Part shown: piece by piece, positions 2,615-25,531 of the stretch
How positions within the stretch are numbered: the stretch's first letter is position 1
Layout: every line of letters begins with the position of its first letter
From: a virus
DNA length: 25,531 nt
IMG/VR virus record: IMGVR_UViG_3300027805_000081
Coordinates: 1 to 25,531 of that record
Strand: one strand, 5' to 3'
Program-made: the position numbers and the translations under genes
The notes under the pieces: model-generated
The model's database searches: none
What the model saw: the letters and a program-made list of their open reading frames with translations, nothing else
What the model was told of the DNA's origin: nothing

Positions 2615-2664
2615 GAGCATAATGAAAATTATGCAGAATTATTAACGTGCTCAAGGAGGAAACT

Positions 2665-3207
2665 ATGGACCCACTATTTCAAATTTACACTAAGATGGGT
2701 GAGATTGAAACAAAGGTAGCTGATAGCATATTTGAAAATTATAAACTGAGCGTCGCTCAAACAAATGATATCAATAACCGCGCAATGCAAACTGCATTCC
2801 ACACGGACGCAACGCTTGCCGCTATAAAACAGACAGTTAATGATGCAAATACGCAGAATCTACTAGCGTTTGAGCGCTTAAATTCTGCAGTTCAGCTAGC
2901 AGCTGCTCACACTAATGAAGTGGTAATGAATGAAGGTGGCGCAACTCGTGCTCTCATCGGATCCATCGATCGTGAGAATCTAAATCGTCAACTAACTGAT
3001 CGTGCGACTGAAATCGTTGCTCTAAGAGAAGGATTCCGCGGCTGGGAAAGAGATTGGGGTCGTCTAAATGGCGCGGTCCAATCTGCTAACGTAGCTAGCC
3101 AAATCGCTGCTCTAGGAAGCCAACTTCAAAGCGCAAGGCAAGGCGTAATCAATACTGGTACATTTACTGGTAATACGCAAACACAGACGCCTACTAACAT
3201 TGGTTAA
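2665..3207 (+). CDS. Late structural-type protein, first copy of tandem pair
   Basis: 180 residues; family not recognised. The ATG at 2665 is chosen because AAGGAGG (2653-2659) lies 5 bases upstream; a longer reading from GTG 2647 would run through this site. The protein is mostly helical and rich in Asn, Gln and Ala. Segments FENYKLSVAQTNDINNRAMQ and GSIDRENLNRQLTDRATEI are also present in the next gene, with about four fifths identity overall by eye and no gaps. It ends with TGNTQTQTPTNIG, a terminal motif also found, diverged, in the protein at 4562. As the first gene after the late promoter, it is probably a virion component or an appendage assembly factor. Confidence 0.85.
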   Translation: MDPLFQIYTKMGEIETKVADSIFENYKLSVAQTNDINNRAMQTAFHTDATLAAIKQTVNDANTQNLLAFERLNSAVQLAAAHTNEVVMNEGGATRALIGSIDRENLNRQLTDRATEIVALREGFRGWERDWGRLNGAVQSANVASQIAALGSQLQSARQGVINTGTFTGNTQTQTPTNIG

Positions 3208-3218
3208 GGAGAAACATC

Positions 3219-3803
3219 ATGCCAGAAAATATGACAGGACCAGTTATGCAAACATTCCTAACTGACCCAATGTTTCAGGTCTACACCAAGATGGGTGAGA
3301 TCGAAACAAAGGTATCAGACAGCGTGTTTGAAAACTACAAGCTTCAAGTAGCCCAAACCAACGATATCAACAATCGTGCTATGCAGACAGCTTTCCACAC
3401 AACAGCGGCTCTAGATGCTCTTAAGCAAGCAGTAAATGATGCAAACACGCAGAACCTACTTGCAGCCGAGCGCCTTAAGTCAACAGTTGAACTTTCAGCT
3501 GCACACACAGCTGAAGTTGTTATGCAGGAAGGCGGCCAGACCAATGGTATCATTGGTTCTATTGATCGCGAAAATCTCAACCGTCAGCTAACTGATCGTG
3601 CAACTGAAATCTTTTCACTAAGGGATGGTTATCGTGGTTGGGAAAGAGATTGGAGTGGTCTAAATGGCGCATTCCAGTCAGCTAATGTAGCATCACAAGT
3701 TTCAGCACTAGGAAGTCAGCTTCAAGGAGCCTCACAGGGCTTTCTAAACACTGGAACAGCTACTGGTAATGAGCAAACACAAACGCCTACTAACATTGGC
3801 TAA
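3219..3803 (+). CDS. Late structural-type protein, second copy of tandem pair
   Basis: 194 residues; paralogue of the preceding gene with 14 extra N-terminal residues (MPENMTGPVMQTFL) before the common TDPMFQVYTKMGEIETKV segment. SD AAGGAG lies before ATG 3219. Synonymous positions differ widely between the copies, so the duplication is not recent. The C-terminus ends in the same tail, TGNEQTQTPTNIG. No catalytic motif is seen. The role is presumed structural from the late operon and its fibre neighbours. Confidence 0.85.
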   Translation: MPENMTGPVMQTFLTDPMFQVYTKMGEIETKVSDSVFENYKLQVAQTNDINNRAMQTAFHTTAALDALKQAVNDANTQNLLAAERLKSTVELSAAHTAEVVMQEGGQTNGIIGSIDRENLNRQLTDRATEIFSLRDGYRGWERDWSGLNGAFQSANVASQVSALGSQLQGASQGFLNTGTATGNEQTQTPTNIG

Positions 3804-4813: not shown

Positions 4814-5587
4814 ATGGAAAATGATAGCCTTAATAAAAAATTGCACGACATAAATTCTGCAATTTCATTTTTAAAATATGGGAGAAATAGAGCTGGGTTT
4901 AACCCGCTTGCTGCTAGAGCATTTCAGCTTGCAGCAGCTGCTCTTCAAGATGAAAATAATGATGTTTTATCTATAGACATAGGTTCACCGTGCACCACGG
5001 GGCCTACTGGACCAACTGGACCAACTGGCCCACAAGGTTTGGACGGTCCAACTGGCCCCGTGGGTTTAACCGGTGCAACGGGTGACCCAGGAGTAACAGG
5101 TCCGACTGGACCTTCAGATGGCCCCACTGGTCCCACTGGTCCAACTGGTGATGTGGGTGCAACTGGACCTACAGGTGCAGGTGGATTAGATGGAGTAACT
5201 GGCCCCGCCGGTGCAAATGGATTAGATGGACCCACGGGCCCTATTGGCCCTACTGGATTAGATGGGGTTACAGGTCCGACTGGCGCGGCTGGCTCCCTAA
5301 TTGTTCCGGTAACTAATGTAACAACTACTCCTTATACCATACTGAGCACGGATTACATGCTCGCAATAAATGTTGCAGGTGCAAGTTCTATCGTTCTTCC
5401 ATCTGCACCTTCAACAGGAACAGTTTATATTGTCAAGGATGTATCCGGAAATGCATCAACAAACAATGTCACAGTAACTGTTTCTGGTGGTGCAGTTACT
5501 ATAGATGGAACAAATTCAGCACTCATAAACACTGACTATGGCGCGTTAAACTTTATCTTTAATGGCACAGAATGGAACGTTTACTAA
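4814..5587 (+). CDS. Collagen-like fibre protein with C-terminal beta head
   Basis: 257 residues. Residues 1-60 form a helical N-terminal part with Cys60. Residues 63-161 are about 33 Gly-X-Y triplets, mostly GPT, GLD, GVT and GAT, with one break at Asp102 (GPS-D-GPT). This predicts a trimeric collagen-type triple helix. Residues about 165-257 form a beta-rich head ([32 protein letters not shown]) that recurs in the proteins at 6152 and 6665. Start ATG 4814 has AAAGGTA upstream. Phage collagen-like proteins are usually tail- or capsid-fibre parts; Thr-rich triplets like these are also used in spore surface fibres, but nothing else here suggests that. Confidence 0.85.
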
Positions 5588-8281: not shown

Positions 8282-9250
8282 TCAAACAGCTGTTAGCAGG
8301 TACTCAGCGCGACGCTTCCAGTTATCACCGCCTCGACCAGCCACCTTCGTGACCGAGATCAGAGTGCGGAGGCTGAGCTCGCGGGCTTCGTCCTTCATCT
8401 CGCAGAGGAACTCGAGAGCATTCTGCTTGACAGTCATGTCATACTCGGGAAGGAAGTCGTCACCCTTGATAATGACGCTCATGCGCTCAATCTTTTGCAC
8501 AGTCGTCATCGAGAGATCCACGCAGATCGCACGACTGCGTACTGCCTGATCAACCTTGAAGATGGGAAGGTTCGAGATAAAGATGACACCACCCTTGAAC
8601 TCGAACGATCGAGGCAGATCATCGTCACCGAACGATTCAGCATTCCAGGAAATCACCCGCTTGTCATAGGAATCCAGTGCTCCCTTGAGAAGATTGAGAG
8701 CTACCGGATCGCGGAGAACGCTGTCACAGTCATCAAAGACCACGATGCGGTTGCGATTTTCGTAGAGAGTCCGGTACAGACCCTTCGCGGTAGAGTACCC
8801 CTTGACCACCGTGTAGATCTTGCGAGACTGACTTTCGAAGAGGTTGTCATCATGACCCAGGCCGATAGCATCAGCTGAGTTGATGAGACCTGCATCCTTG
8901 AGTGACTTATTAACGGTGAAGGTCTTGCCAAGACCACCTTCACCGGTTACAAGCAGGGAAGGAGAAGTCCGATCGGCAACCATGTTAACAAAGTCAGTGA
9001 GAAAGTCAAAGCGCTCGTTGATGCCGAAGCGATCTACTTTTTCCGTCTTGCCAGTTTCAGCATTGACCTCAGTGGTTCCGACTTCACGAACATCAGTTAC
9101 ACGCATTTGATTTGCCTTAGTGCAGCGGCCGGCCCTGATATTACCAACCACATATTCCTTGTTGGGAGACGCGGCCAGAATCTTGCCCGCGTGGGTAGCC
9201 GTCCACTTGTTCATCCGAGAATCAAAGGAGAGGATTGCAACGTTCGACAT
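8282..9250 (-). CDS. AAA+ ATPase, early
   Basis: 322 residues. Walker A GEGGLGKT at 103-110, Walker B IVVFDD at 169-174, and a sensor-1-like FISN ending at N227. The C-terminal helices (SLRTLISVTKVAGRGGDNW) resemble an AAA+ lid. The first 80 residues are a small beta-rich domain. The same core occurs in the larger protein at 12053, so these are paralogues. Start ATG 9250 has GAGGAA 6 bases upstream. It is first in the transcript from promoter 3, so it is probably made early. Substrate unknown; remodelling of a nucleoprotein or protein complex would fit the fold. Confidence 0.85.
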   Translation of the reverse strand: MSNVAILSFDSRMNKWTATHAGKILAASPNKEYVVGNIRAGRCTKANQMRVTDVREVGTTEVNAETGKTEKVDRFGINERFDFLTDFVNMVADRTSPSLLVTGEGGLGKTFTVNKSLKDAGLINSADAIGLGHDDNLFESQSRKIYTVVKGYSTAKGLYRTLYENRNRIVVFDDCDSVLRDPVALNLLKGALDSYDKRVISWNAESFGDDDLPRSFEFKGGVIFISNLPIFKVDQAVRSRAICVDLSMTTVQKIERMSVIIKGDDFLPEYDMTVKQNALEFLCEMKDEARELSLRTLISVTKVAGRGGDNWKRRAEYLLTAV

Positions 9251-10985: not shown

Positions 10986-12008
10986 TTACAGCAGTTTTAG
11001 CAGTTGCTCTGGCATCGTTCTGAGCAGTTCCTTGGTTTCTTCTGCTCGTTGCTTAGACTTTTCAGTTGAAGCCTTTTCAAACTTGGTTGCTAGAGTTCCG
11101 GCGTGTGCTTTATCTAAATAGGCCTTCTTTATTTGAGAGATAAAGTCATCATAGTTCTTGATGTTCTTAAGGTCACCTTTACCGTACATTCCGTTCATTT
11201 CAAATGACTGACCTAGTCCCTTTACTGCATTTGCTAAATCCTTAAAGGCAATTTCATCTCTGTTTATTCCCGGATGTGACTTTAGAAGAGCTGAAATTTT
11301 AGGCTTATCATGGCCTTCATGAGAGCGGTTATAGAAGTAATCAAAAATGTGACGCGCAAAATTGCCTGGATCAAGAGAGATAGTGTCTACACGGTCAACC
11401 TTCTGCTTCTTGAATGAAACAATCTCATCACCAATGTGCTTGGCCATAACACCATTTCCACCCATGCTTAGGTTCAACACTTCTGCTAATGCTGTATAGA
11501 GAAATCCCATGAATGATCCCTTGAGCTTGTGCTGTGGTGTCATTCTATGTGTTGTCCAATCCTCAGTATGCGGGAATGATTTGACTAGATCTACTTGGTG
11601 AACTTCATCCCCAAGATTGACTATTAAATTTTGACCTACTCTGTCTGGATCATCTACCAAGTATGATGGCTTTTTCTCGTGCGTAAATTCTGCAATAAGG
11701 TCTTGATAGATTGTTGAGTTCTTGTTCTCGGAAACGCCTTCAATTCTAGGAATAACAAATATGACGTCAATGTCACCATATTCTTTTTCAGGATTTTCCT
11801 TTAAATCTCTTTCCCAATACTTAGATGAACCAACAAAGCTTCCAAACTTGATAGGAAGGTAGTTCTTCTTTTTCAAGAACGCGTTGAAGTCGCTTTCAAA
11901 CTTCTTTAGGAAAGGAGTTATCTCCTTCACCGTTTTTGGTGTGGGCTGGCTTCCCTGAGTTTTGGTGGTAGCCCATCCACCTTCTTGAAGGAGCTCGTAT
12001 ACTTTCAT
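10986..12008 (-). CDS. Nucleotidyltransferase-fold protein with putative capsid-targeting N-terminus
   Basis: 340 residues. GSFVGSS at 56-62, then D79-x-D81 (YGDIDVIFVIP) and D140 (HQVDLVKSF) form the GS-DxD-D active-site pattern of the polymerase-beta nucleotidyltransferase superfamily. All three acidic residues are present, so catalysis is plausible. The C-terminal 200 residues are helical and Lys-rich. The first nine residues (MKVYELLQE, then GG) resemble the T4 capsid-targeting peptide cut by the gp21 protease after L-x-E. A near-consensus late box (TATAAATT) lies 28 bases upstream of the ATG. Candidate virion-packaged enzyme that modifies RNA, protein or nucleotide; the target is unknown. 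Confidence 0.72.
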   Translation of the reverse strand: MKVYELLQEGGWATTKTQGSQPTPKTVKEITPFLKKFESDFNAFLKKKNYLPIKFGSFVGSSKYWERDLKENPEKEYGDIDVIFVIPRIEGVSENKNSTIYQDLIAEFTHEKKPSYLVDDPDRVGQNLIVNLGDEVHQVDLVKSFPHTEDWTTHRMTPQHKLKGSFMGFLYTALAEVLNLSMGGNGVMAKHIGDEIVSFKKQKVDRVDTISLDPGNFARHIFDYFYNRSHEGHDKPKISALLKSHPGINRDEIAFKDLANAVKGLGQSFEMNGMYGKGDLKNIKNYDDFISQIKKAYLDKAHAGTLATKFEKASTEKSKQRAEETKELLRTMPEQLLKLL

Positions 12009-12052: not shown

Positions 12053-13537
12053 CTAGGCGTATAACTCCACGAGTTTTTCCCAGTTGGGAGCTCCCGATGC
12101 AGCTAAGTTGAGCGCACGAACAAGCTTACGGAGGGAAACATCTCCCTTGCGCTTAGAAGTTTTAACTACCTTCATAACATCTCTGCGCTCTGATGCTGAA
12201 AGTGAAAGACCTTCCTCAAGCTTAATATCATCTAGAATCTTTTCCATGTATTCGAAGAGCTCTTCATCTGTTGGATCAACGTTAATGACGAAAGCACGCG
12301 TGCGAAGAGCACCATCAGGGTCTAGCTTATTAAGAGGTAGATTTGAGATGAAAATAATTCTTCCCTTAAAGTCAAAGAACTTAGGAGCCATGCTCAAATC
12401 ATCTTCATATACTTCAGGATCTTCAGCATCTGGATCAAATATAAACGATGACTTCTTATTCCACACAAGTTTTCTAATTTTCTTTGTGTCAGTTGCTGCT
12501 TTAATAATATTGCGAGCATCTTGATCTGCTAGCGCACCGTCTGAATCGTCGAACACGATGATGTCATTTCTGTGATGATAGAGAAGCGTATACACACCAG
12601 CTGCTGAAGCTGATCCAGTATTCTTAAAATATCCGTTTCCATCTGATAATCCGTGGGATCCCAAAACGTTCTCAACGGTCTGAGTCTTACCAGTACCACC
12701 TTTTCCTGCAACGAACAACGCGTTAAACGCACCCTTAACGATGCCAGTCACTAGTCCTTCTAGGTGCTCAAGAACATCACCATAAGGCACTCTTTCAGAT
12801 GAAGATGATTCTACTTGTTCTTCTTGCTTTGTCTTTAAGTAAACTTCTTTAGTACCGCCGGCCGTTACTTCAATAACTCCTGCTTTAGAAAGAATAGAAT
12901 CCTTTAGCTGATCAATGCTTACGCCTGGCTTAATTGCGATTCTCTTTGCGTCAATTTGAAATTTATCGGCAAAGCTCTTAAAAATAGTGTCAAAGATACC
13001 CACATTAACAATATGATATGTGCCAATAAATTCAGAGCGAGTAAATGTATGCCCCGAAATAAGCTTTTTCATGAAATCATTCAGTGCTTGCTCTGCCGTG
13101 AAATCATCACGCTTTGCTTCCATGACCGCTGATTCTGTTGCTTCTTCAGGATCTACAGGAAATACAGTCATTCTACCTATAGTTGGCGATTTTAAAATAG
13201 TAACGAGTGCGGGTAATGACTTAACTAAAGAAATTCCTTGGGTATGAATGCTGAAAGATGGATCATGTTTTCCATGGAAAACATCTATTGAAGTTATTTC
13301 TGCAGATTTTCCAGCAGATGGTTCTGACTTCCAATTAAATCTAATGCAGTGAGTTGAACCTGAAAAAACATACCTATAACCATATCCATGGGAATCACTA
13401 TTATGAAAATGCTCTACTCCAGGTATCTTGATAAGCTTTACACCTAACTTTTTCTGCAAGAAAGAAATCATCTTTTCCATAGCAAGATGAACCTTAGAAC
13501 TGCTTATCTGTGCTTCAAATAAATCTATTATTTTCAT
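12053..13537 (-). CDS. AAA+ ATPase with long N-terminal domain and putative capsid-targeting peptide
   Basis: 494 residues from ATG 13537; GGGAG lies 8 bases upstream, inside the longer TTG-13552 frame, which is therefore rejected. It starts MKIIDLFE then AQISSSK, matching an L-x-E cleavage site after residue 8. Residues about 10-250 are a mixed alpha/beta region not recognised. Walker A GKGGTGKT is near 278-285, Walker B is IIVFDDSDG, and FISNLP is like sensor 1. The ATPase half is paralogous to the protein at 8282 (KFFDFKGRIIFISNLPLNKL versus SFEFKGGVIFISNLPIFKV). It probably acts late or in the virion, unlike its early paralogue. Confidence 0.8.
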   Translation of the reverse strand: MKIIDLFEAQISSSKVHLAMEKMISFLQKKLGVKLIKIPGVEHFHNSDSHGYGYRYVFSGSTHCIRFNWKSEPSAGKSAEITSIDVFHGKHDPSFSIHTQGISLVKSLPALVTILKSPTIGRMTVFPVDPEEATESAVMEAKRDDFTAEQALNDFMKKLISGHTFTRSEFIGTYHIVNVGIFDTIFKSFADKFQIDAKRIAIKPGVSIDQLKDSILSKAGVIEVTAGGTKEVYLKTKQEEQVESSSSERVPYGDVLEHLEGLVTGIVKGAFNALFVAGKGGTGKTQTVENVLGSHGLSDGNGYFKNTGSASAAGVYTLLYHHRNDIIVFDDSDGALADQDARNIIKAATDTKKIRKLVWNKKSSFIFDPDAEDPEVYEDDLSMAPKFFDFKGRIIFISNLPLNKLDPDGALRTRAFVINVDPTDEELFEYMEKILDDIKLEEGLSLSASERRDVMKVVKTSKRKGDVSLRKLVRALNLAASGAPNWEKLVELYA

Positions 13538-13564
13538 TTTCAGATCTCCCAAGTTTATAGTTTT

Positions 13565-15558: not shown

Positions 15559-16008
15559 TCAATCCTTAAGTGCCCTAGGTAGTAAACCTACATTATCATG
15601 ATGAGAAGGTGCTGTCCATCCCTCTGGCTTAATTAGATCTGGAAATCCATATGGGTTTGGCCTTCCTGGCTTTACGCCCGGTTGCTTAACCATGTTTGCG
15701 CAATGAACTTTATTCCATGCGGTGTAAGCATCAATATTAAAGGCATCTAACGTTCCTATTGCAAAAACGATGCAATCAATTAGTGCGTCTACGACACCAT
15801 CTGCATCTTTGTCAGCGAATGCCTTATGGGCTTCTGATACTTCTTCTTGAACCATGTCCAAGCGGAATTTTAGATAAGACTTAAGCTGCTCATTGCTTAG
15901 CCCCTGCACGACCTCATTCACCTTGAACTTAGTATGCATGTCTTGGATATCGGCGGGCCAAAAAGTTGGATCAGTTGTGTTTTGCATTTGTGTTTGATCG
16001 TTTGACAT
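15559..16008 (-). CDS. MazG-like all-alpha NTP pyrophosphatase
   Basis: 149 residues. EEVSE at 55-59 and DALID at 74-78 are the EExxE and ExxD/DxxxD metal-binding helices of the MazG/dimeric dUTPase superfamily. W and NM residues after them (AWNKVHCANMVKQPG) resemble phage MazG-like proteins, as do the C-terminal KPGRPNPYGFPDL residues. The family hydrolyses (d)NTPs to the monophosphate plus pyrophosphate. In phages it is thought to clear unwanted nucleotides or alarmones. It closes the nucleotide and DNA-modification cluster, with the terminator just beyond. Confidence 0.82.
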   Translation of the reverse strand: MSNDQTQMQNTTDPTFWPADIQDMHTKFKVNEVVQGLSNEQLKSYLKFRLDMVQEEVSEAHKAFADKDADGVVDALIDCIVFAIGTLDAFNIDAYTAWNKVHCANMVKQPGVKPGRPNPYGFPDLIKPEGWTAPSHHDNVGLLPRALKD

Positions 16009-16043: not shown

Positions 16044-16700
16044 TCATCTTCCTGAAATTTTCTTGATGTCTTCAAGAATAATATTCAGATTATTTTCTGG
16101 TAAATCAACACCAAAAAGTACTCTATCCCACTGCACAGAAGCAAACCAATTTTTTTCTTCTGTATACATGCTCACGAGCCTATCAATATGGCTAAATAAA
16201 GTCTTCTCTATTGTATTTGATTGTTTACCCATTCTTTTTAGATTCGCGTGTGCTTCTGAAGCAGTAGTAACATCTGATAGAATGCGTTTCTTAAATCTTT
16301 CAAGCCTAACATCCATGTCGGTATGAATGTAGTACTTAAGGTGAATAGCCCCGGCATCCAACGCAGGCTTAACATAATTATCTATGCCAGATGGTTCAAC
16401 AATCAGGAATGCAACACCATGAGAAAGCTTCTGTTGAAATTCATCCTTTGTGACACCATATCGAATGCCACGATAAGTAGCAAGCTCTGCAAACTGATCG
16501 CTCTTTTCAAGAGCTTTAGAGAAGTCTTCATCGATGAAGTAATAGTCAACTCCTTCTTCTTCTCCCATTCTTGGCTGCCGCGTTGTTGTAGATATAAGAC
16601 ATGGCAGTTTAGCCACATCTCTAATGTAATTAAAAAGATATGATTTTCCTGCGCAAGATGGTGCGGTTAATGTTACTAGAACTGGTTTGCTATTAGCCAT
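16044..16700 (-). CDS. Guanylate-kinase-like nucleotide kinase
   Basis: 218 residues. The P-loop is APSCAGKS at 13-20 (K19), an acceptable variant of GxSGxGKS. TTTRQPRMGEEEGVDYYF at 38-55 is the guanylate kinase GMP-binding signature (TTRxPRxGExxGxDYxF). VAFLIVEPSG fits the usual strand with Asp replaced by Glu or Pro. The enzyme family makes GDP from GMP using ATP. The start overlaps the end of the NTP transferase gene by 25 bases, so the two are coupled. It may recycle GMP or dGMP for replication, or serve the neighbouring NTP transferase and YvcK/CofD-like protein. Confidence 0.82.
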   Translation of the reverse strand: MANSKPVLVTLTAPSCAGKSYLFNYIRDVAKLPCLISTTTRQPRMGEEEGVDYYFIDEDFSKALEKSDQFAELATYRGIRYGVTKDEFQQKLSHGVAFLIVEPSGIDNYVKPALDAGAIHLKYYIHTDMDVRLERFKKRILSDVTTASEAHANLKRMGKQSNTIEKTLFSHIDRLVSMYTEEKNWFASVQWDRVLFGVDLPENNLNIILEDIKKISGR

Positions 16701-17479
16701 TTTTGCTTTATCTCCTCTTGAATCAGTGCAACTTCTTCTGGTGTGTTGAAGCTCCTGGTTGGGTAATCAGTTTCATACACCTGAGCTGGCCGCTCGGTGT
16801 TGTGCAATATATGAAATGCATGAAGAAGAGAAAGCTCTCCTCCAGGGGTTATATATCTCCCATTCTTCCAAAAACACGTATGTAAGTTGAACAGGGCATT
16901 GAGAATAACTTTTTTATCAAATCTAAAAATAGATTGATCATGGAATCCTGATGGATGATTTTCTCCATATTTTGAAAAATCTGCAGACATGCACGACATA
17001 TGCTCATCCACCAAAAGTGTAACATAAGGATTATCCTTACGTACAGCAGGAATGAATCCTGAGATATGATTTCCTGCATACCTCTTACTAAGTAATTCAT
17101 CAACCGTTTGGCAAAAAGGCAGAAAAACATCACCCCAGCAAATAACTATATCATCGCTAACTACTGAATAATCAGTAGCTCTTTTAAGCCCCCGCATAAC
17201 GGCATGCCCATCTCCTAGGCCAGATTTAATTGGCACAAAGTAAACACGCGTGTTATCAATTAGAGTTGGAAATAATTTTTCTGTTTCCCTTCTATATTGA
17301 TCCCACTGTTCAGTAATCAGTTCATTTATGATAATAAAAATATTATTAAATTTGTGTCCAATTTGCTGCAGCGTTGTAGTTAAGTTTGGTATGTCTGTAA
17401 TAGGAACTAGGGCCTTAGGGATATTTCCGCCCATCCTTGATCCCTTACCTGCGGCAATAATAAAAAGATCAGTATTCAT
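16676..17479 (-). CDS. GT-A-fold NTP transferase (sugar or phospho-ligand nucleotidyltransferase)
   Basis: 267 residues. IIAAGKGSRMGGNIPKALVP at 7-26 is the nucleotide-binding signature of the GlmU/RmlA/MobA/CofC superfamily, with the Lys in PKALVP. The metal-binding Asp is probably in ICWGDVF. The end (SFNTPEEVALIQEEI) is typical of sugar-phosphate nucleotidyltransferases. It would join an NTP to a phosphorylated ligand, releasing pyrophosphate. The ligand is unknown: glucose-1-phosphate for UDP-glucose supply, another sugar, or a CofC-like phospho-acid. It overlaps the upstream gene by 11 bases and the downstream kinase by 25. Confidence 0.8.
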   Translation of the reverse strand: MNTDLFIIAAGKGSRMGGNIPKALVPITDIPNLTTTLQQIGHKFNNIFIIINELITEQWDQYRRETEKLFPTLIDNTRVYFVPIKSGLGDGHAVMRGLKRATDYSVVSDDIVICWGDVFLPFCQTVDELLSKRYAGNHISGFIPAVRKDNPYVTLLVDEHMSCMSADFSKYGENHPSGFHDQSIFRFDKKVILNALFNLHTCFWKNGRYITPGGELSLLHAFHILHNTERPAQVYETDYPTRSFNTPEEVALIQEEIKQKWLIANQF

Positions 17480-19322
17480 TTTTTGAGTGAATTACGGTTG
17501 TTAGGAAAAATGCAGTTTCTGCTGGATCCCTCACTTTCAAGCACTTTACTCTGTCATCATTCAGCTGAGCAACAGGCCAATCATTTCCAGTTTCAAGTTC
17601 ATCACCAACATATGTAATAGATTTTACCCTGCTTTTAAGTACGTGTTTAACTGCATCCTGCTTTGATAGCACCCGATTATGTATCTCAATAGTTGTTCTA
17701 CCTGTTGGTTTAACAACTAGGGTGTTGAGCTGCAATTTTTCAAGAACGTGCTTTATTAGATTGATAGCAATTTCCCTGTATTCTTCATTGATTGGTTTGA
17801 TACAGATCATTGCATTGCCACGATTCTCTATCTTAGAGTATTGAAATCCGCTTTCTAGTAAATTCTTGATGATTAGATTAGCGGTATCATAATCAATTAA
17901 GCATGATTCATTGATACATCTAACGAAGTTTGGTTTAACACCATCATCAGAATCCAGATGACTTAGGGTATTATATGAATACTCATTAATACCACCATCA
18001 GCATAAACTGTTAGTGGTTTAACTGCGTCAGTTCCCCAAGTATTGAAACCTAGACTATATTGAATCCTAAGAGATACTGCCTTGATGCTGTTTCCAGTGC
18101 ATACTGAGACGCTTGATCTATTCTTTAGCTCACAAAGCATTTTCTTGTTTAGCTCAGATGCCTTTTTCTGGTAGTTACCCCTACCAACCAAAGTATCATC
18201 ATAGTCAAACATGAAGTGCGCACTGTCTAGATAATCTAGAAAGTACGCTCTAGAAATTGCTTTAAAAAGATCTTCAGGCTCATGCTTTGATGATTCATTA
18301 TAGCTTTTGAATGTCGTGACCGATTTGAGAAGAGCGGACGCACTTTCGTCAATTACAGACATCTGTGGGTGGCCACCTACATCTACAACAAGATTAACTC
18401 TTTTCTCACTGAAGTATTTAGGAACAATCAGTCGCACAATGTCGCTTGCTGTCTGCCCGGGTGAATCTTTATCTGGTTCACGATTCATCACCATTATGAC
18501 CTTTGCCTTACTTTGCTGAACTGCTTCTCTGAAGCCAATTGATGCATAGGTTGGAATTAGCGATGACCACTGCGTGCCAGATGAAAGGATTATAAGGTCA
18601 GCATCTAGAATAGCTGCCCGCGCTTCGTGACAAAGAATAGGTCTAACTTCATTTCCTGCTGAATCTACGAAGAACACATCAACGAAGGGATCATCCATAT
18701 TTCCCCAAGAGACGATGTCACCTTCATCTGTTACTCGCGCCCCACTTTTGGTAATAGCCCCAAGGAACATGGACGTATCATCATTAATGATTACATTATC
18801 ATTGATCCCCATTAGGTTAGCCATAATTCTAGCTGCCTCTCTCATAGAGTTTCTATTTGCACTAGCAAATCCAGCATAGATGATGTTAGCTAAAGAAAAG
18901 TCCGTGTAGTCAATCTTCGTCGCTACCGGTATAGAGAAGAACGTTTCAACGGCTTCTTTTAGAAGTGTCATCTTCTCTAGTGCACTTTCTAATCCAAGTT
19001 TATCTCCCAATTCATCAATTGCTTTGATGCAGAAGCCCTGTGCCTTGGATGATTCGCTCGTGAAACGAATATCCAAAAATTTATTCCAAGGTGACAAAGG
19101 ATTCTCTAACTTTAGCCGCGTCGTTTGATTTTTACGAACATCTGATGGTCCTAGAATTTTACCATCACACACCTTGCGCACAGCGCCGGTGCTTAGGCCA
19201 TTATCATATGCGTTAACTATGACCTTGGTGTTAATCCCGTCAATAGGGTTATCGAGCAGATTGTATAGCCCTGTTTGGAGCGCTATTGATCCGGTTCCAC
19301 CTGCCAATATAACTATATTCAT
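17469..19322 (-). CDS. YvcK/CofD-like domain fused to a HAD phosphatase
   Basis: 617 residues in two parts. Residues 1-340: LAGGTGS at 6-12, NAYDNGLSTGAVRK at 37-50, LGPSDVRK at 57-64, LANIIYAGF around 144-152 and LSSGTQWSSLIP at 246-257 follow the YvcK/CofD order (GGGTG, DDGGSSGRLR, PPGDIRN, HSLGNLLLAG, GPGSLYTSIIP). Residues 365-617: FDYDDTLVG at 372-380, CTGNS at 408-412, ADGGINEY and GDELETGND at 573-581 are HAD motifs of the Cof/phosphomannomutase type. CofD transfers a phospho-ligand from a guanosine diphosphate carrier to an alcohol; YvcK binds UDP-sugars. The fusion's reaction is unknown. It lies directly downstream of the DNA beta-glucosyltransferase. Confidence 0.8.
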   Translation of the reverse strand: MNIVILAGGTGSIALQTGLYNLLDNPIDGINTKVIVNAYDNGLSTGAVRKVCDGKILGPSDVRKNQTTRLKLENPLSPWNKFLDIRFTSESSKAQGFCIKAIDELGDKLGLESALEKMTLLKEAVETFFSIPVATKIDYTDFSLANIIYAGFASANRNSMREAARIMANLMGINDNVIINDDTSMFLGAITKSGARVTDEGDIVSWGNMDDPFVDVFFVDSAGNEVRPILCHEARAAILDADLIILSSGTQWSSLIPTYASIGFREAVQQSKAKVIMVMNREPDKDSPGQTASDIVRLIVPKYFSEKRVNLVVDVGGHPQMSVIDESASALLKSVTTFKSYNESSKHEPEDLFKAISRAYFLDYLDSAHFMFDYDDTLVGRGNYQKKASELNKKMLCELKNRSSVSVCTGNSIKAVSLRIQYSLGFNTWGTDAVKPLTVYADGGINEYSYNTLSHLDSDDGVKPNFVRCINESCLIDYDTANLIIKNLLESGFQYSKIENRGNAMICIKPINEEYREIAINLIKHVLEKLQLNTLVVKPTGRTTIEIHNRVLSKQDAVKHVLKSRVKSITYVGDELETGNDWPVAQLNDDRVKCLKVRDPAETAFFLTTVIHSKNEY

Positions 19323-19335
19323 AATTGTCTCCTAT

Positions 19336-19362
19336 AAAACGCCCTAGTTCCGGGCCCGTTTT
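19336..19362 (-). other. Intercistronic hairpin after the glucosyltransferase gene
   Basis: AAAACG and CGTTTT pair across the gap, with CCC/GGG inside and a 2-base bulge. The stem overlaps the stop codon region of the glucosyltransferase and ends just before the AGGAGA ribosome site of the YvcK/CofD-like gene. It could attenuate transcription or set the relative expression of the two genes. Confidence 0.35.
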
Positions 19363-20485
19363 ATTTACGGGATTCTGATAGATCTTTAATCAGATTTACG
19401 AATGATTCACAGTACGCTTTAGAATCAAATCCTACTGCTTTTATTTGATCCTGTAGAATTTGCTTTCTTATAGTGGGATCATTTTTCAACAGTTGAATTT
19501 TTTCTGATAATTCTTGCCTATCATTTACATAGAGAAAATCTGCGAGATTTTTATCAACGCCATAAACACGCCTAAGTTTGTCCATATCAGCATCAACAAA
19601 AGTAATAACCGAAGACCAGATACTTTCATATAGTCTTTGCGGAATATCATTGATCTGCTCATACCAAGGATCTCCTATGACACAGTGAGCCATAGCCCTG
19701 TTCATTTTAGGCAGCATCTCATCATATTTTACGGGCCCAGTAAATATCGGTGGCCGAGGAGACGAGAATTTCACGAGATCAAAATCTTCTTGAGAAATTT
19801 TGCCAAACATCTCAACTGTAATATCATCCGGGTGTCCAAAGTAATACTTAATCATCTTCTTTTCACGCTTACCACCGCGCATAGTCCCACCATATGATAG
19901 GTCAACCTCAGGAGTGGAATTAAAGGGAATCCGTGAATTCAGACATGGAAACTTTTCAAATGGAAAGTGCACAATCTTAGAAGGGATTACTTCATTCTTC
20001 TTTAGATCACCAAGAACCTTCTCAACATCATATGGCTGAGAAACATAGATGATGTCTTTGCGAGTGATGCCAAGCATCTGCTCTGTCCAATTGCTAGCCC
20101 ATGACTTCTTAGATACAGAGGGCCATACTTGCTTCAATGTGAGCTCTGGATCACATAGTAGGTAAAACACTGGTCCATAGAAGTTATTGATTATCTTGTA
20201 ATTTAATAGTTGCTCTTTATCTTCAGCACCACCAAAAAAGTTCACGTTGCCGTTTAGAACCACAAGAGCGTCAAACGCACCAAGCATCATGTGATCTTCT
20301 TCAATGTTATGCCAATGGTAATCAGCAACTAAGTTGTCCTTCTTCAGAATTTTCGTAAAGATGTGAACATCAGCGCCACCAAGCTTAAGCATCTTGCAGA
20401 TGCTTCTCGCTTCACCATTAGCACCAGAGGTATCGTTTGCATTAAACGAAATTCTTGATCCAAGCTTAATAACTGCTACTTTCAT
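19361..20485 (-). CDS. bgt: DNA beta-glucosyltransferase (hydroxymethylcytosine)
   Basis: 374 residues, close to the 351 of T4 BGT, and alignable along its length. Shared landmarks: N-terminal MKVAVIKLGS, NFFGG at 82-86, FYLLCDPEL with D112 at the place of the T4 catalytic Asp100, YGGTMRGGKRE at 198-208 (T4 YGGSFRSGQRE, UDP-contacting Arg residues kept), PPIFTG at 245-250, VIGD at 269-272, and E287 in QRLYESI at the place of T4 Glu272. T4 BGT transfers glucose from UDP-glucose to 5-hydroxymethylcytosine in DNA, protecting it from nucleases. Start ATG 20485 overlaps the kinase TGA (ATGA). With the hydroxymethylase at 24978 this indicates glucosylated hmC DNA. Confidence 0.9.
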   Translation of the reverse strand: MKVAVIKLGSRISFNANDTSGANGEARSICKMLKLGGADVHIFTKILKKDNLVADYHWHNIEEDHMMLGAFDALVVLNGNVNFFGGAEDKEQLLNYKIINNFYGPVFYLLCDPELTLKQVWPSVSKKSWASNWTEQMLGITRKDIIYVSQPYDVEKVLGDLKKNEVIPSKIVHFPFEKFPCLNSRIPFNSTPEVDLSYGGTMRGGKREKKMIKYYFGHPDDITVEMFGKISQEDFDLVKFSSPRPPIFTGPVKYDEMLPKMNRAMAHCVIGDPWYEQINDIPQRLYESIWSSVITFVDADMDKLRRVYGVDKNLADFLYVNDRQELSEKIQLLKNDPTIRKQILQDQIKAVGFDSKAYCESFVNLIKDLSESRK

Positions 20486-21033
20486 GATATTGCTTCTTCC
20501 AAAATATCCTCAGTACATCTAAAGTTCCCATCTTCACTGGTCACACAGATAATTTTCTTATCCTTGATGATTGACTTGTTGAAAGCTTCTATGAATAGGT
20601 TCTGCTCTTCCTTTCTCTTTGATGCATCAAATGATTCTCCATCATCAACAAAGTGCGTGCTGATATCAAAGTTTTCTGTGAGAAGAATCATCCTAACATG
20701 ATCAAGACGACTAAAAGCAGCATAGCTACGCTCAAGATCAAAAACATAGGAACCAGAATAACCACGATAAATGGGTGCGTAAACCATTTCTCCAAGGTGC
20801 GCACGATCAAGTATAATACGTGCATCTGAATTTAATATGTTGAACATGCTTCTGAACGCAGCAATTTGATACATCTTTTTAGAATCTGTACCATATTGAT
20901 GTTCATAGCATTCAAGAACCTTTGGCTTTTGGTAATGGATTACCTGGAAATATCCTAGTCTGTTCTGGATGCCTTCAATTAGTGTTGACTTCCCAAGACG
21001 ATCAATTCCCTCGATAATAAAAGATCTACGCAT
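20482..21033 (-). CDS. Deoxynucleoside monophosphate kinase (thymidylate-kinase-like)
   Basis: 183 residues from ATG 21033, preceded by GAGG 6 bases upstream; a longer frame would overlap the previous gene. IIEGIDRLGKST at 6-17 is the P-loop of the thymidylate kinase family (FIxxEGxDGxGKST). ILDRAHLGEMVY is the DRxxxSxxVY region. A lid segment with DASKRKEEQN follows. T4 uses a dNMP kinase (gp1) to phosphorylate hydroxymethyl-dCMP. This protein is not obviously gp1 but could do the same job, or act on dTMP. It is coupled to bgt by ATGA. Confidence 0.8.
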   Translation of the reverse strand: MRRSFIIEGIDRLGKSTLIEGIQNRLGYFQVIHYQKPKVLECYEHQYGTDSKKMYQIAAFRSMFNILNSDARIILDRAHLGEMVYAPIYRGYSGSYVFDLERSYAAFSRLDHVRMILLTENFDISTHFVDDGESFDASKRKEEQNLFIEAFNKSIIKDKKIICVTSEDGNFRCTEDILEEAIS

Positions 21034-21034
21034 G

Positions 21035-21289
21035 TTAAACCTCGAAGACTGCTTCATCTCCATCAAGAGTAAGAATCTGGTTTCCGTTATATCCATCAAC
21101 GGTTATAGTTAATTCTACTTCAGTATAACATGAATTAAAGAGCTCACTGTCAATATTTTCAAACTCACTGCATAGATCAAATGCCGCATCTGAAAAGCGC
21201 GTGTTTGCTCCTAGACGTACCTGTGACAATAATCTTCCTAGCAATAAAAACTGGTCTTCATTTAGATCAATTTGATATGTGTTACTCAT
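21035..21289 (-). CDS. Small hypothetical acidic protein
   Basis: 84 residues. An N-terminal helix (LNEDQFLLLGRLLSQVRLG) is followed by a C-terminal beta section (EVELTITVDGYNGNQILTLD). Its ATG lies within the end of the AbrB-like gene, and its stop is 1 base from the kinase start, so the three are tightly coupled. Function unknown. Confidence 0.75.
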   Translation of the reverse strand: MSNTYQIDLNEDQFLLLGRLLSQVRLGANTRFSDAAFDLCSEFENIDSELFNSCYTEVELTITVDGYNGNQILTLDGDEAVFEV

Positions 21290-21452: not shown

Positions 21453-23189
21453 TCATAAGAATTTTGTAAACCTTAGGTTAAATTCATTCTTCCAGATATT
21501 CTGTGAAGAATTAAAGAGACGCTGCGCATTTGCATCTAGGCAATAAGTAACAGCGTGGTCATCCGCAGATCTCACAGATCTGCCAGCTCCCTGCACCATC
21601 TTCATGATCGTAATGATGTTATAAAGATCAGGATGTCTATCAAGTATGAACTTCATTCGCTTATCAGCTAATGATGGGAAAGGTGCCTTCACTAAAATTT
21701 GAAACCTGGAAAGGTCACCCGGTAGGTCAATTCCTTCAAACATAGCCGGAGAAATAAGAACAGCTGGTCCATCTTTAAAGTGCTTGAATGATGCAAGTAC
21801 ATTCTCTAGTTTTTCTCCCTGGCGATGCTCGAATAGTGTAAACTTTCCTGCCTTATAAAGTGGCAAAATTTCTGCAACTATTTCTTGCTGAAGTTTAAAG
21901 CTAGGCGCAAGAATAATTCCTCGCTCACCTTCGTCAACGTGTTTTTTAACAATCTTGTATACATTCTTTCTAAGCTGCTTTACTGTATCGGGATTCTGTA
22001 GAGAAGTATAGCTAAGTGATAACGGGTCAAAGAAAACTACTTCTTTATTTTCCTTAGGAAAAGTAGGGTCAAGCCGTATGAACTTTGTTTTTTCTGTATC
22101 TAGCTTAAGAGTTTTAGAAAGAAAATCTGCGCTCACTGTCGCTGACATAAAGAGGTTATGCGTGGAGCATTGCAGCGCTTCCATCATCGTGCCAACAAAT
22201 ACTGGTTTAACCGATACTGCTGCTTCATCTTCTTTGTATTCGAAGACGTGCTCATATCCATACTTAAATAGATCATCTATCTTGCACACTAGACCTTCAT
22301 ATTTCTTAGTGAATCGTGATAGCTTGGTGTATTTACCCATATCACCAGATCTAAGAGCTCTTTCTCCTGCTATAGTGCCCTGCTCCTTAGCATAAGAATA
22401 AACTTTATGAAGCGCTCTAAGGTAAGCATCATAATTTTTCTCATTAATCTTATCTTTTTTGGCACAGTCAGATGCTATGCTGGTTAATGTCTTTGCTATT
22501 TCTATATCAGTTAGCCTAACGGTTTCTGCTATTTCCTCAGCCATTGCTTGGATTCTCTTCTGTGAAAAATAGATAGCATTATGCTCACTGAAAAGATCAT
22601 TAACCAGGTGTGCCTCGTCCCATATTAAAAGGTCTCTATCTTCAAACTTACCCGTGTACATTCTATCGATAAAGAAATACGAATAGTTTGTCGTTAGATG
22701 TCTCACCGTATTCTTTTTCTTTTTTACTGCAAGGTACTCGCACTTGTTGCAGTGGTTAGCAATTACATCCTCAAACTCTGATCCTGATTGCACCATTGTA
22801 TACCATGCACAGGCCTCAGCATTTTCTTCGTTTTCAGGAGTTGTTAGAGCAGAACAGCCATAGTTGCTCGCTCCCTTAATCATGATGTACTTGCTACCAT
22901 TAGAAAGTTTTTCAAAGGTAGAACTGTATTGTTTTAATAAAGTATTCGTTGAAACTAAACTAATGCTAGATTTTATTCCGTGATTATTAGAATTTATCAT
23001 ACTAAGTGCCTCGGCGCAAACGGCACCAATAATGCTTTTTCCTGTGCCAGTAGAAGCAGAGAGAATAACATTTTGCATTTTCTCGTCAACAAATGCGCAA
23101 ATTATCTTTTCTACTACATCAACCTGACCATTCCTAGGGATAAATCCTAGGTTAGAAAAAGCTTCATTTATAATTGTTTTTTTGTCCAT
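21453..23189 (-). CDS. XPD/DinG-type Fe-S DNA helicase
   Basis: 578 residues, superfamily 2. The Q-motif-like region IPRNGQ is at 17-22, Walker A STGTGKS at 46-52, four Cys at 112, 127, 147 and 150 in the position of the XPD/DinG 4Fe-4S cluster, DEAH at 191-194, MSATVS near the middle and QGAGRSVRS near 533-541 (motif VI). The family unwinds DNA 5' to 3' in repair and replication. Start ATG 23189 has no visible ribosome site, unlike nearly every other gene here. A second N-terminal start of the same type lies beyond the HNH gene (23989-24087), so the 5' end of this gene was probably rearranged by homing. Confidence 0.88.
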   Translation of the reverse strand: MDKKTIINEAFSNLGFIPRNGQVDVVEKIICAFVDEKMQNVILSASTGTGKSIIGAVCAEALSMINSNNHGIKSSISLVSTNTLLKQYSSTFEKLSNGSKYIMIKGASNYGCSALTTPENEENAEACAWYTMVQSGSEFEDVIANHCNKCEYLAVKKKKNTVRHLTTNYSYFFIDRMYTGKFEDRDLLIWDEAHLVNDLFSEHNAIYFSQKRIQAMAEEIAETVRLTDIEIAKTLTSIASDCAKKDKINEKNYDAYLRALHKVYSYAKEQGTIAGERALRSGDMGKYTKLSRFTKKYEGLVCKIDDLFKYGYEHVFEYKEDEAAVSVKPVFVGTMMEALQCSTHNLFMSATVSADFLSKTLKLDTEKTKFIRLDPTFPKENKEVVFFDPLSLSYTSLQNPDTVKQLRKNVYKIVKKHVDEGERGIILAPSFKLQQEIVAEILPLYKAGKFTLFEHRQGEKLENVLASFKHFKDGPAVLISPAMFEGIDLPGDLSRFQILVKAPFPSLADKRMKFILDRHPDLYNIITIMKMVQGAGRSVRSADDHAVTYCLDANAQRLFNSSQNIWKNEFNLRFTKFL

Positions 23190-23225: not shown

Positions 23226-24011
23226 ATGTTTAACGATTCTAAATATACTCGCTGGTATTTTTCAATCATATGTAATCCAGATACTGTGTCTTATACTGAG
23301 AAACATCATATTATTCCCAAATCTATTGGTGGATCGGATGAAGAATCAAACATAATCGCAGTTTCTCTTCGTCAGCACTATGTTCTTCATTTACTTTTAC
23401 CCAAAATGGTAAAGAATAAAACTCACAAAAACAAAATGTTATTTGCTCTTAGATGTATGCTTAATTTTAACAAACTTTCTAGAAGATATAAACCATCATC
23501 TCGAATTATTGAACATCTTAAAAAAGCCATTCGAGAAACTCCAATTTCTAGTCATCATTCAGACAATATTAGAAAGGGTCAACTTGGAAAAACTTTAAGT
23601 CAAGAACATAAAACGGCAATTTCAAAGGGATTGCTGGGTAAAAAGCATACTGTTGAAACTTTAGAAAAAATGTCACGTGCTCAAAAAAGACGGATATTAT
23701 CCCCAGATCATAAAAATAAAATTAGTCAAACCAGAAAAGGCAAAGGTCTGAGTTCTGAACACAAAAATAAGATTTCAACTAGTCTTTTAGGAAAAAAACG
23801 ATCTGAAGTATCAAAAATCAATTCTAGTAATGGGCAGCAAAAATATGTTTACACATTAATTTCTCCAAATGGAGAAATCTGCACCACATCTAATCTTAAA
23901 GAATGGTGCAGTATCATGAATATGCCATATTCATCATTTTCTGAAATATCTAGAATTGGTGGATCTACAAAAAATGAATGGAAGGTTTTTAGAAAAAGAA
24001 AAGCTGTTTAA
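23226..24011 (+). CDS. HNH homing endonuclease with NUMOD3-like repeats
   Basis: 261 residues, the only plus-strand gene in a minus-strand region. HHIIPKSIGG at 27-36 with N42, H51 and H55 is the HNH motif. Residues about 110-185 contain repeated NUMOD3-type DNA-binding units (GKTLSQEHKTAISKGLLGKK, then HTVETLEKMSRAQKR, LSPDHKNKISQTRKGKG). The C-terminus (YTLISPNGEICTTSNLKEW) resembles a NUMOD1-type helix-turn-helix. SD TTGGAG lies before ATG 23226. It is AT-rich, inserted between a helicase 5' remnant and the helicase gene, and is probably a free-standing mobile gene whose target lies in the helicase gene. Confidence 0.88.
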   Translation: MFNDSKYTRWYFSIICNPDTVSYTEKHHIIPKSIGGSDEESNIIAVSLRQHYVLHLLLPKMVKNKTHKNKMLFALRCMLNFNKLSRRYKPSSRIIEHLKKAIRETPISSHHSDNIRKGQLGKTLSQEHKTAISKGLLGKKHTVETLEKMSRAQKRRILSPDHKNKISQTRKGKGLSSEHKNKISTSLLGKKRSEVSKINSSNGQQKYVYTLISPNGEICTTSNLKEWCSIMNMPYSSFSEISRIGGSTKNEWKVFRKRKAV

Positions 24012-24756: not shown

Positions 24757-24981
24757 CTATTTTGGTTCATCTAAGAGGTGAATTACGCCTGGAGATCTGT
24801 CGGTATAATAATCATCATCTTCTACGGCTGTCACGTAGACTTCATCGAGCGTCTGTGCAAATTTTGGGTGTGTAGTATCTGTCTTAATAAGAGTGCAGCA
24901 CGTTTCATCCCCTTGCTTTTTGCGATCTAGCTTGCTAAGTAGGGTTAGAAGATTTCTTCTTGAAAGGTAGATTTTGTTCAT
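24757..24981 (-). CDS. Conserved small phage protein
   Basis: 74 residues (MNKIYLSRRNLLTLLSKLDR, then GDETCCTLIKTDTTHPKFAQ, then VYVTAVEDDDYYTDR). I recognise the pattern as a widespread uncharacterised phage family often found near replication and nucleotide genes. The ATG overlaps the TGA of the hydroxymethylase gene (ATGA), so it is translationally coupled. Function unknown. Confidence 0.82.
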   Translation of the reverse strand: MNKIYLSRRNLLTLLSKLDRKKQGDETCCTLIKTDTTHPKFAQTLDEVYVTAVEDDDYYTDRSPGVIHLLDEPK

Positions 24982-25531
24982 GCTTGCTTAGGATAATTTA
25001 CTGGATCAACTAGATGATAGTGACGAGCGTACACGTGCAGAGATCCAACCTGCCACATAATATTTCCAACAGGAAGTTCTAGATCTGCAGCCAGCTTTGA
25101 TAATACGTGGTGCTGCCACGCTCTATCATTTTTGTAACCGAACACTGCATCATTAGAGCGCATTTGAACTACCGCATTAAGTGATCCGTTTCGGATTAGA
25201 TATTGAACGGCATTGGTGCACATGAAATCAGAGCGACCATTCTTGTTGTAGTCTAGCCACATAGATGGCCTAGTGTAGATCATGATAGCTCGACGAGATT
25301 CTGGGTTCTTCTTTAGTTCTTTTCTAGCAAACTTATACTGATTAAAGAATGACCCGTCATCTTGTACTTTGACATCAGCGGGATTAGCAACAGTATTATC
25401 TGCAGAGTAGATGCACCAACCATAGTTTGAGTTGATGAATCCATCCTTATCAGCAACTGCCTTCCAGATTTGCGGTGCACCACCAGGAATATCATTCACG
25501 TTGAGAGACATGGAGTTATACCATTCTTCTT
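24978..25531 (-). CDS. 42: dCMP hydroxymethylase (T4 gp42-like), 5' end outside window
   Basis: A thymidylate-synthase-fold enzyme that converts dCMP to 5-hydroxymethyl-dCMP using methylene-tetrahydrofolate. The frame stays open to the right edge (EEWYNS before the Met at 25511, matching T4 ELEWYKS), so that Met is internal and the gene continues beyond 25531. Segments matching T4 gp42: NDIPGGAPQIW, INSNYGW, IMIYTRPSMWLDYNKNGRSD, FMCTNAVQYLIRNG (catalytic Cys), MRSNDAVFGYKNDRAWQ, MWQVGSLHVYARH. The C-terminus is shorter than in T4 by about 15 residues. It is the upstream step for the beta-glucosyltransferase at 19361. Confidence 0.93.
   Translation of the reverse strand, partial: EEWYNSMSLNVNDIPGGAPQIWKAVADKDGFINSNYGWCIYSADNTVANPADVKVQDDGSFFNQYKFARKELKKNPESRRAIMIYTRPSMWLDYNKNGRSDFMCTNAVQYLIRNGSLNAVVQMRSNDAVFGYKNDRAWQHHVLSKLAADLELPVGNIMWQVGSLHVYARHYHLVDPVNYPKQA

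Follow-up and report, generated by a model that had tools for sequence, protein, structure and literature searches.

To our knowledge, sugars joined to phage DNA through a phosphate have been reported from Bacillus phage SP-15 only, and the enzyme that transfers them in that phage has not been established. In SP-15 the sugar is a glucuronolactone attached to the DNA by a phosphodiester, and a phosphomannomutase, a uridylyltransferase and a glycerophosphotransferase are among the genes proposed for this system (PMC5977210). In T2 and T6, a second sugar is added to glucosylated DNA by an enzyme of the PF20691 family (PMC13216743). A precedent for pairing a nucleotidyltransferase with CofD-fold transfer chemistry is provided by CofC and CofD (PMC8764529), the counterparts of FbiD and FbiA of coenzyme F420; in FbiA, Asp45 and Asp57 bind metal, and the acceptor hydroxyl attacks the beta-phosphate of the nucleotide-activated donor (PMC7253369). 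Another CofD-fold protein, GlmR/YvcK, binds UDP-sugars through residues that include a ligand-contacting Asn (N217 in BH3568 and N218 in B. subtilis; PMC5482804) and has been reported as an accessory uridyltransferase that turns UTP and GlcNAc-1-P into UDP-GlcNAc and requires D40, D41 and N198 (PMC10128056).

Here, we describe a phage locus with a gene of the CofD fold. The window, that is, the whole stretch of DNA analysed, comprises the 25,531 bases of a virus record, has a GC content of ~40% and showed no tRNAs. Its central feature is a CofD-HAD gene, a single intact open reading frame of 617 codons at positions 17469-19322, followed downstream by a nucleotidyltransferase gene whose start overlaps its end by 11 bases (Table 1). 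The original prediction, which had proposed a YvcK/CofD domain fused to a HAD phosphatase, gave this interval correctly and left the minus strand unstated; it made no mention of the nucleotidyltransferase. The AlphaFold2 model of the CofD-HAD protein, built from 30 homologues, has a mean pLDDT of 91.8 and a pTM of 0.90, and a single polypeptide with both folds is borne out by the uninterrupted frame, this model and the recurrence of the same fusion in independent contigs. A separate profile search with each half returned CofD (Pfam) for the N-terminal and HAD-IIB (NCBIfam) for the C-terminal part, and neither half was assigned to another fold.

Table 1 Features of the CofD-HAD locus and its surroundings in the 25,531-base window
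Feature	Positions	Strand	Evidence
PRA-PH/MazG-type pyrophosphohydrolase	15559..16008	-	Pfam PRA-PH 1.1e-9
Guanylate-kinase-like gene	16044..16700	-	Pfam 2.7e-13; PHROG 1815 1e-30
GlmU/UDP-sugar-pyrophosphorylase-like nucleotidyltransferase, obligate partner	16676..17479	-	Pfam, profile, model
HAD-IIB domain (residues 365-617 + stop), family profile closest to phosphomannomutase / alpha-phosphoglucomutase	17469..18230	-	TIGR01484; profile vs PDB; Z 16.3 to 4bnd
CofD/YvcK-like domain (residues 1-345)	18288..19322	-	Pfam CofD; YvcK, FbiA and CofD structure matches; family profile
T4-type DNA beta-glucosyltransferase	19361..20485	-	Pfam T4-Gluco-transf 5e-19; PHROG 7922 7e-56; profile vs T4 BGT 8.6e-45
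Deoxynucleoside monophosphate kinase-like P-loop enzyme	20482..21099	-	PHROG 761 thymidylate kinase 8e-15; recurs with cluster
T4-type dCMP hydroxymethylase, 5' end off contig	24978..25511	-	Family profile vs T4 dCMP hydroxymethylase 1b49, E 2.6e-72

The architecture, which had been thought unusual for a phage, is not unique to this one: the family recurs in phages and Firmicutes, always with the nucleotidyltransferase. The search for the same domain architecture recovered the fusion from ~25 divergent contigs of viruses. Of the 19 bacterial contigs that hold both halves, 18 have them fused, the bacterial sources being contigs of Clostridia, Lachnospiraceae, Oscillospiraceae and Bacilli together with one binned as Bacteroidales. 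Full-length viral relatives occur in IMG/VR contigs and, at 32% identity, in an unannotated 462-kb phage genome; at the DNA level, the region had no nucleotide match in the phage collection. Across all 30 aligned sequences, D40, D61, R63, K64, N65 and N280 of the CofD half and D373, D375, T377, K554, G573 and E575 of the HAD half are invariant.

The N-terminal half is of the YvcK/CofD type, as originally proposed. Pfam CofD (PF01933) covers its residues 3-313 (E 3.5e-22; 79.4 bits, the cut-off being 30), its family profile retrieves YvcK from the PDB at E 3.9e-24, and residues 1-358 of the model superpose on YvcK BH3568 with Z 31 (2.3 A over ~291 residues), as compared with Z 21 for FbiA and Z 20 for CofD. 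Identity as a true YvcK, an F420 CofD or a GAK-system protein was considered and rejected, all three curated cut-offs being missed: 67.8 bits against 196 for YvcK/GlmR (TIGR01826), 13.9 against 257 for F420 CofD (TIGR01819) and 32.9 against 340 for the GAK-system CofD-like proteins (TIGR04357), with which it shares the CofD-like fold and a weak profile match. By these low scores, the half is a separate subfamily within the CofD fold. Its nearest solved fold is YvcK: the ligand-contacting Asn of YvcK corresponds in the profile alignment to the invariant N280, whereas the GlmR catalytic D40, D41 and N198 align with D40, N41 and T258, so that the first alone is identical. The profile alignments to YvcK end before its UDP-sugar-binding Tyr265 and Arg301. 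D40 and D61 are likely counterparts of the metal-binding FbiA Asp45 and Asp57, a motif correspondence drawn through YvcK, with the direct mapping to FbiA being inferred.

The C-terminal half carries the predicted HAD motifs, with DYDDT at residues 373-377 and GDELETGND at 573-581, and its assignment as a HAD-IIB sugar-phosphate enzyme is well supported. It combines a DxDxT motif I, a motif II position that is T409 or Ser in the 30 sequences, a Lys motif III, an acidic motif IV and a C2B-type cap; TIGR01484 (HAD-SF-IIB) matches residues 370-592 at E 8.8e-7, below the NCBIfam cut-off (29.2 versus 41.8), and HAD-IIB enzymes give Z scores of up to 16 with residues 365-615 of the model. The top PDB match of the family profile is the L. 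lactis alpha-phosphoglucomutase 4bnd (2.5e-14), followed by phosphomannomutases at 2.2e-13 (7myv) to 4.3e-6, as against 7.8e-5 for the best phosphatase (1nf2) and 0.08 for trehalose-phosphatase. The structure scores rank alike, with Z 16.3 for alpha-phosphoglucomutase, ~15 for phosphomannomutases, ~14 for trehalose-phosphatases and ~13 for Cof-type phosphatases. These mutases are thus the best profile and structure match, although identity is ~22% and the cap-domain arginines are only partly kept across the CofD-HAD family. From the profile and structure ranking we lean towards a mutase rather than a phosphatase, while Pfam scans of single sequences favour Hydrolase_3 (19 of 30 members, compared with PMM in 4 of 30, two S6PP matches and one Trehalose_PPase match). 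Of the phosphatase originally predicted, the HAD fold and motifs stand, but the best family-profile matches are to mutases.

The most durable of the alternative readings retains this phosphatase and places it after the CofD step, where it would strip a phosphate still present on the CofD-attached group or clear the nucleoside monophosphate by-product. The complete HAD motif set, the Pfam matches to phosphatase families and the structural similarity to trehalose-6-phosphate phosphatase speak for it. We nonetheless consider it unlikely, though still a serious contender, in that the family profile puts phosphomutases ahead by nine orders of magnitude and one locus (L045) has the HAD domain fused to the nucleotidyltransferase, which suggests that the HAD step precedes activation. 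A phosphatase of this kind would be compatible with a role in DNA modification and overlaps with the explanation that we prefer.

The partner enzyme has a GlmU-type fold and the AAGxGxRM....PK signature: IIAAGKGSRMGGNIPKAL. It matches Pfam NTP_transf_3 (2e-8, 35 bits against a cut-off of 27) and, by profile, GlmU (2.9e-12), and its model (pLDDT 95.2) superposes on M. tuberculosis GlmU with Z 26.7 over 248 residues; the uracil-contacting Gln of GlmU is apparently not kept, as read by eye from the motif. Wherever the flank of a viral locus is long enough, the nucleotidyltransferase lies within 1.3 kb of CofD-HAD; it is the direct neighbour in all of these loci but the 462-kb phage and a near-copy of it, in both of which three small genes lie in between. 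It is likewise adjacent in all 19 bacterial loci with both halves (L020-L038), including the one in which CofD and HAD are separate genes (L037), and the domains have been re-fused in other arrangements, as HAD-nucleotidyltransferase in L045 and CofD-nucleotidyltransferase in L039. Among 24 glucosyltransferase-anchored viral loci, 18 hold CofD, HAD and nucleotidyltransferase and 6 hold none of the three; the 18:6 ratio is biased and is not a frequency, since set-bearing phages supplied the patterns for the glucosyltransferase search and several near-copies are among the 24 loci, but the all-or-none pattern stands. The three domains are therefore a set of three functions that are present or absent together.

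In the window, this set is embedded in a T4-type pathway. Like T4, the phage carries both a dCMP hydroxymethylase, which keeps the cytosine-specifying Asp in 'GYKND', and a beta-glucosyltransferase, which in the profile comparison with T4 BGT keeps Asp100 and the R191/R195 region; the two elements of T4-type hydroxymethylcytosine glucosylation, a hydroxymethylase specific for cytosine and a glucosyltransferase with its catalytic residues, are thereby present. The locus differs from the T4 pathway in the extra step that the set implies: as far as we know, T4 lacks the set, and no T4 record matched the CofD-HAD protein in the homologue search. The guanylate-kinase-like gene was considered as a fourth member and rejected, as it occurs without the set in four loci (L079, L080, L082 and L084); we assign it to the hydroxymethylcytosine pathway because it is also found in glucosyltransferase loci that have no CofD-HAD set. 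In the set-less loci, the genes between the glucosyltransferase and the kinase were read by eye. The PRA-PH pyrophosphohydrolase is possibly a nucleotide clean-up step; on modified phage contigs, PRA-PH domains have been found together with genes of the thymidylate synthase type (PMC8670742).

This setting is shared. In most viruses the set adjoins a T4-type dCMP hydroxymethylase and a beta-glucosyltransferase, and the combination recurs in very divergent phages. In three others (L014, L016 and L055) it adjoins a TAGT DNA glycosyltransferase (PF20691), and in the record of a further phage copy (L015) two TAGT genes lie away from the set; in two phages (L019 and L042) the set is present and neither glycosyltransferase was detected. 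Among eight selected contigs, thymidylate-synthase/dCMP-hydroxymethylase-type genes were found in L018 only, at the PF00303 level, and a search of the TAGT-type contigs for TET dioxygenases gave no match, the controls being likewise unmatched. A phylogeny of the CofD half does not unite the copies linked to the glucosyltransferase: its well-supported branches require three or more changes of label, and two copies (L044 and L045) sit in a clade with TAGT-linked and bacterial GT2-linked ones. Association of the set with DNA-modification genes thus came about, or was re-established, on more than one occasion.

In our judgement, a role of the set in DNA modification is quite likely in phages. Lying mostly among genes that glucosylate viral DNA, it is likely to attach another sugar, perhaps through a phosphate, and this would hide the viral DNA from bacterial defences. 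The domain identities, the fusion, its conservation, the fixed partner and the proximity to DNA-modification genes are observations; the reactions that follow are proposals. We see about an even chance that the best explanation overall is correct, namely, that CofD-HAD and the nucleotidyltransferase are a tailoring set adding a further group to glucosylated 5-hydroxymethylcytosine DNA, and we are slightly less sure that what is installed is a phosphodiester-linked sugar. By profile similarity, the HAD half would supply a sugar-1-phosphate, through phosphomutase action or bisphosphate hydrolysis, which the GlmU-like enzyme, going by its fold and family, would turn into a nucleotide-diphospho-sugar. 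The CofD half, as its fold and conserved acidic residues suggest, would then use a metal ion as CofD and FbiA do, with an acceptor hydroxyl attacking the beta-phosphate, such that a nucleoside monophosphate would be released and the sugar left attached through a phosphodiester. The gene neighbourhood points to the glucose on 5-hydroxymethylcytosine in phage DNA as the putative acceptor.

Two described systems resemble this scheme in part. CofC-CofD (FbiD-FbiA) likewise pairs a nucleotidyltransferase with a phosphotransferase of the CofD fold to yield a phosphodiester, and the metal-binding acidic residues are apparently kept here. However, the present half scores far below the F420 CofD cut-off and is fused to a HAD domain, and acceptor and donor must differ because there are no F420 genes here. 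SP-15 shares a sugar tied to the base by a phosphodiester, together with a glucose, as well as proposed mutase, uridylyltransferase and phosphotransferase genes, but its modified base is uracil rather than cytosine and its phosphotransferase is of the CDP-glycerol type; no CofD-like gene was found in SP-15 at E values up to 10 in a search in which the controls were detected.

A consideration against the phosphosugar-transferase reading is the nearest solved relative, YvcK, which is a UDP-sugar-binding protein and a reported uridyltransferase rather than a demonstrated phosphosugar transferase. The set might accordingly make an unusual sugar nucleotide and nothing more: the HAD domain and the nucleotidyltransferase would build it, the CofD half would act as a second uridyltransferase or as a holder similar to GlmR/YvcK, and the T4-type glucosyltransferase would transfer the sugar with no phosphodiester being formed. 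Both activities described above for GlmR/YvcK favour this alternative, as does the closer structural match of the CofD half to YvcK than to CofD. We regard it as rather improbable: two of the three GlmR catalytic residues differ, and a second uridyltransferase beside the GlmU-like one would be redundant. Moreover, phages with the same glucosyltransferase and no set exist, so this enzyme does not need the set, and the set also occurs with unrelated glycosyltransferases. Other features that distinguish the protein from YvcK/GlmR are a score well below the family cut-off, the fused HAD domain and the fixed nucleotidyltransferase partner. A connection to sugar-nucleotide chemistry, as originally proposed, is upheld; a biosynthetic step is more probable than control of the pool of sugar nucleotides, given that the neighbours are DNA-base-modifying enzymes in phages and glycosyltransferases in bacteria.

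The bacterial copies occur in two settings, either in capsule-type clusters with genes for GT2, GT8, LicD, a cytidylyltransferase, a SIS-domain isomerase and a flippase, or in a three-gene unit of a membrane GT2, CofD-HAD and the nucleotidyltransferase; in L033, GT2 and CofD-HAD share one frame. In bacteria, the same set would decorate a surface polysaccharide. Given these clusters, with their glycosyltransferases, LicD, CTP-transferases and flippases, and given that one phage copy (L015) groups inside the bacterial capsule clade of the CofD-half tree, the phages might have captured a module for surface polysaccharide and use it to change the envelope of the infected host, for instance so as to exclude other phages, with no action on DNA. 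Yet in most phages the set adjoins the beta-glucosyltransferase, the hydroxymethylase and nucleotide kinases, in overlapping or near-overlapping genes, or TAGT, and no envelope genes were seen near the phage copies, which makes this alternative decidedly improbable. The weakest alternative, that an assembly or sequencing error joined two genes, had nothing in its favour beyond the caution attached to the original prediction and is ruled out for practical purposes by the full-length fusion, with all motifs kept, in dozens of independent contigs down to ~28% identity. CofD-HAD is a genuine two-part gene, neither a chance nor a sequencing join, as independently found full-length homologues have the same fusion.

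Each part belongs to a known kind; what appears to be new is their combination and the setting in which it occurs. A literature search on CofD-like proteins in phage DNA modification found no description within its coverage, outside which the key papers on TET-type clusters fall, and CofD is unmentioned in the main text of MetaGPA. Tentatively, and with a little less confidence than in the phosphodiester-linked sugar itself, we propose a widespread, previously undescribed module of DNA hypermodification: a HAD domain resembling phosphomutases, a nucleotidyltransferase of the GlmU kind and a transferase with the CofD fold would together join a sugar to glucosylated 5-hydroxymethylcytosine in phage DNA by way of a phosphodiester. 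The module would be exchanged with bacteria, where it would decorate surface polysaccharide, again through phosphodiester links. If this is true, DNA would for the first time join the known substrates of CofD-fold enzymes. The set shows a CofD-fold enzyme beyond F420 synthesis and cell-wall control, and as a shared, exchanged module it ties the decoration of DNA to that of surface polysaccharides. Phages decorate their DNA bases for concealment, and the set is a compact two-gene candidate for placing a phosphate-linked sugar on cytosine; it can also serve as a marker in the search for phages whose DNA is so decorated.

Hydroxymethylase, glucosyltransferase and guanylate-kinase-like genes occur together in four viral loci (L079, L080, L082 and L084) that lack the CofD-HAD set, the intervening genes having been judged by eye. 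In L018, a viral record, the thymidylate-synthase-type match includes one in-frame TGA, which may reflect an error, a frameshift or recoding.

Within the DNA-modification cluster of the window, the helicase lies between the hydroxymethylase and the kinase, a position kept across many related phages, and the free-standing homing endonuclease gene interrupts the cluster on the opposite strand. Two related AAA-type ATPases recur near the cluster in related phages, one of them being longer (655 aa) in the viral locus L007; also found again in such phages is the protein with a possible nucleotidyltransferase motif, for which no family match was obtained. The tandem near-duplicate pair is followed by a collagen-like protein with a GPTGPT repeat and a number of small proteins, possibly virion fibres.

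Features in the window and the compared loci
Feature	Location	Strand	Details
Near-duplicate protein, tandem pair member 1	window 2647-3803	+	
Near-duplicate protein, tandem pair member 2	window 4814-5587	+	
AAA-type ATPase, second	window 8282-9250	-	
Possible nucleotidyltransferase motif	window 10986-12008	-	GSFVGSS...EYGDIDV
AAA-type ATPase, first	window 12053-13552	-	PHROG 1250 (labelled unknown function)
DinG/XPD-type helicase	window 21453-23189	-	PHROG 2488, 2e-81
HNH/NUMOD3 homing endonuclease	window 23226-24011	+	
Thymidylate-synthase-type match	L018 record, G014:C1:70752-71336		
GT2 membrane glycosyltransferase joined to CofD-HAD	L033 385-3408	+	one frame, 1007 residues
Trio upstream of CofD-HAD	L019 7122-9986		
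Trio upstream of CofD-HAD	L042 7444-9987		

In the bacterial locus L033 the GT2 glycosyltransferase and CofD-HAD share a frame. The trio common to L019 and L042, two phages with the set, comprises a no-match protein with a DSGAF motif, a short-chain dehydrogenase and a second no-match protein, and possibly represents a third type of acceptor pathway.
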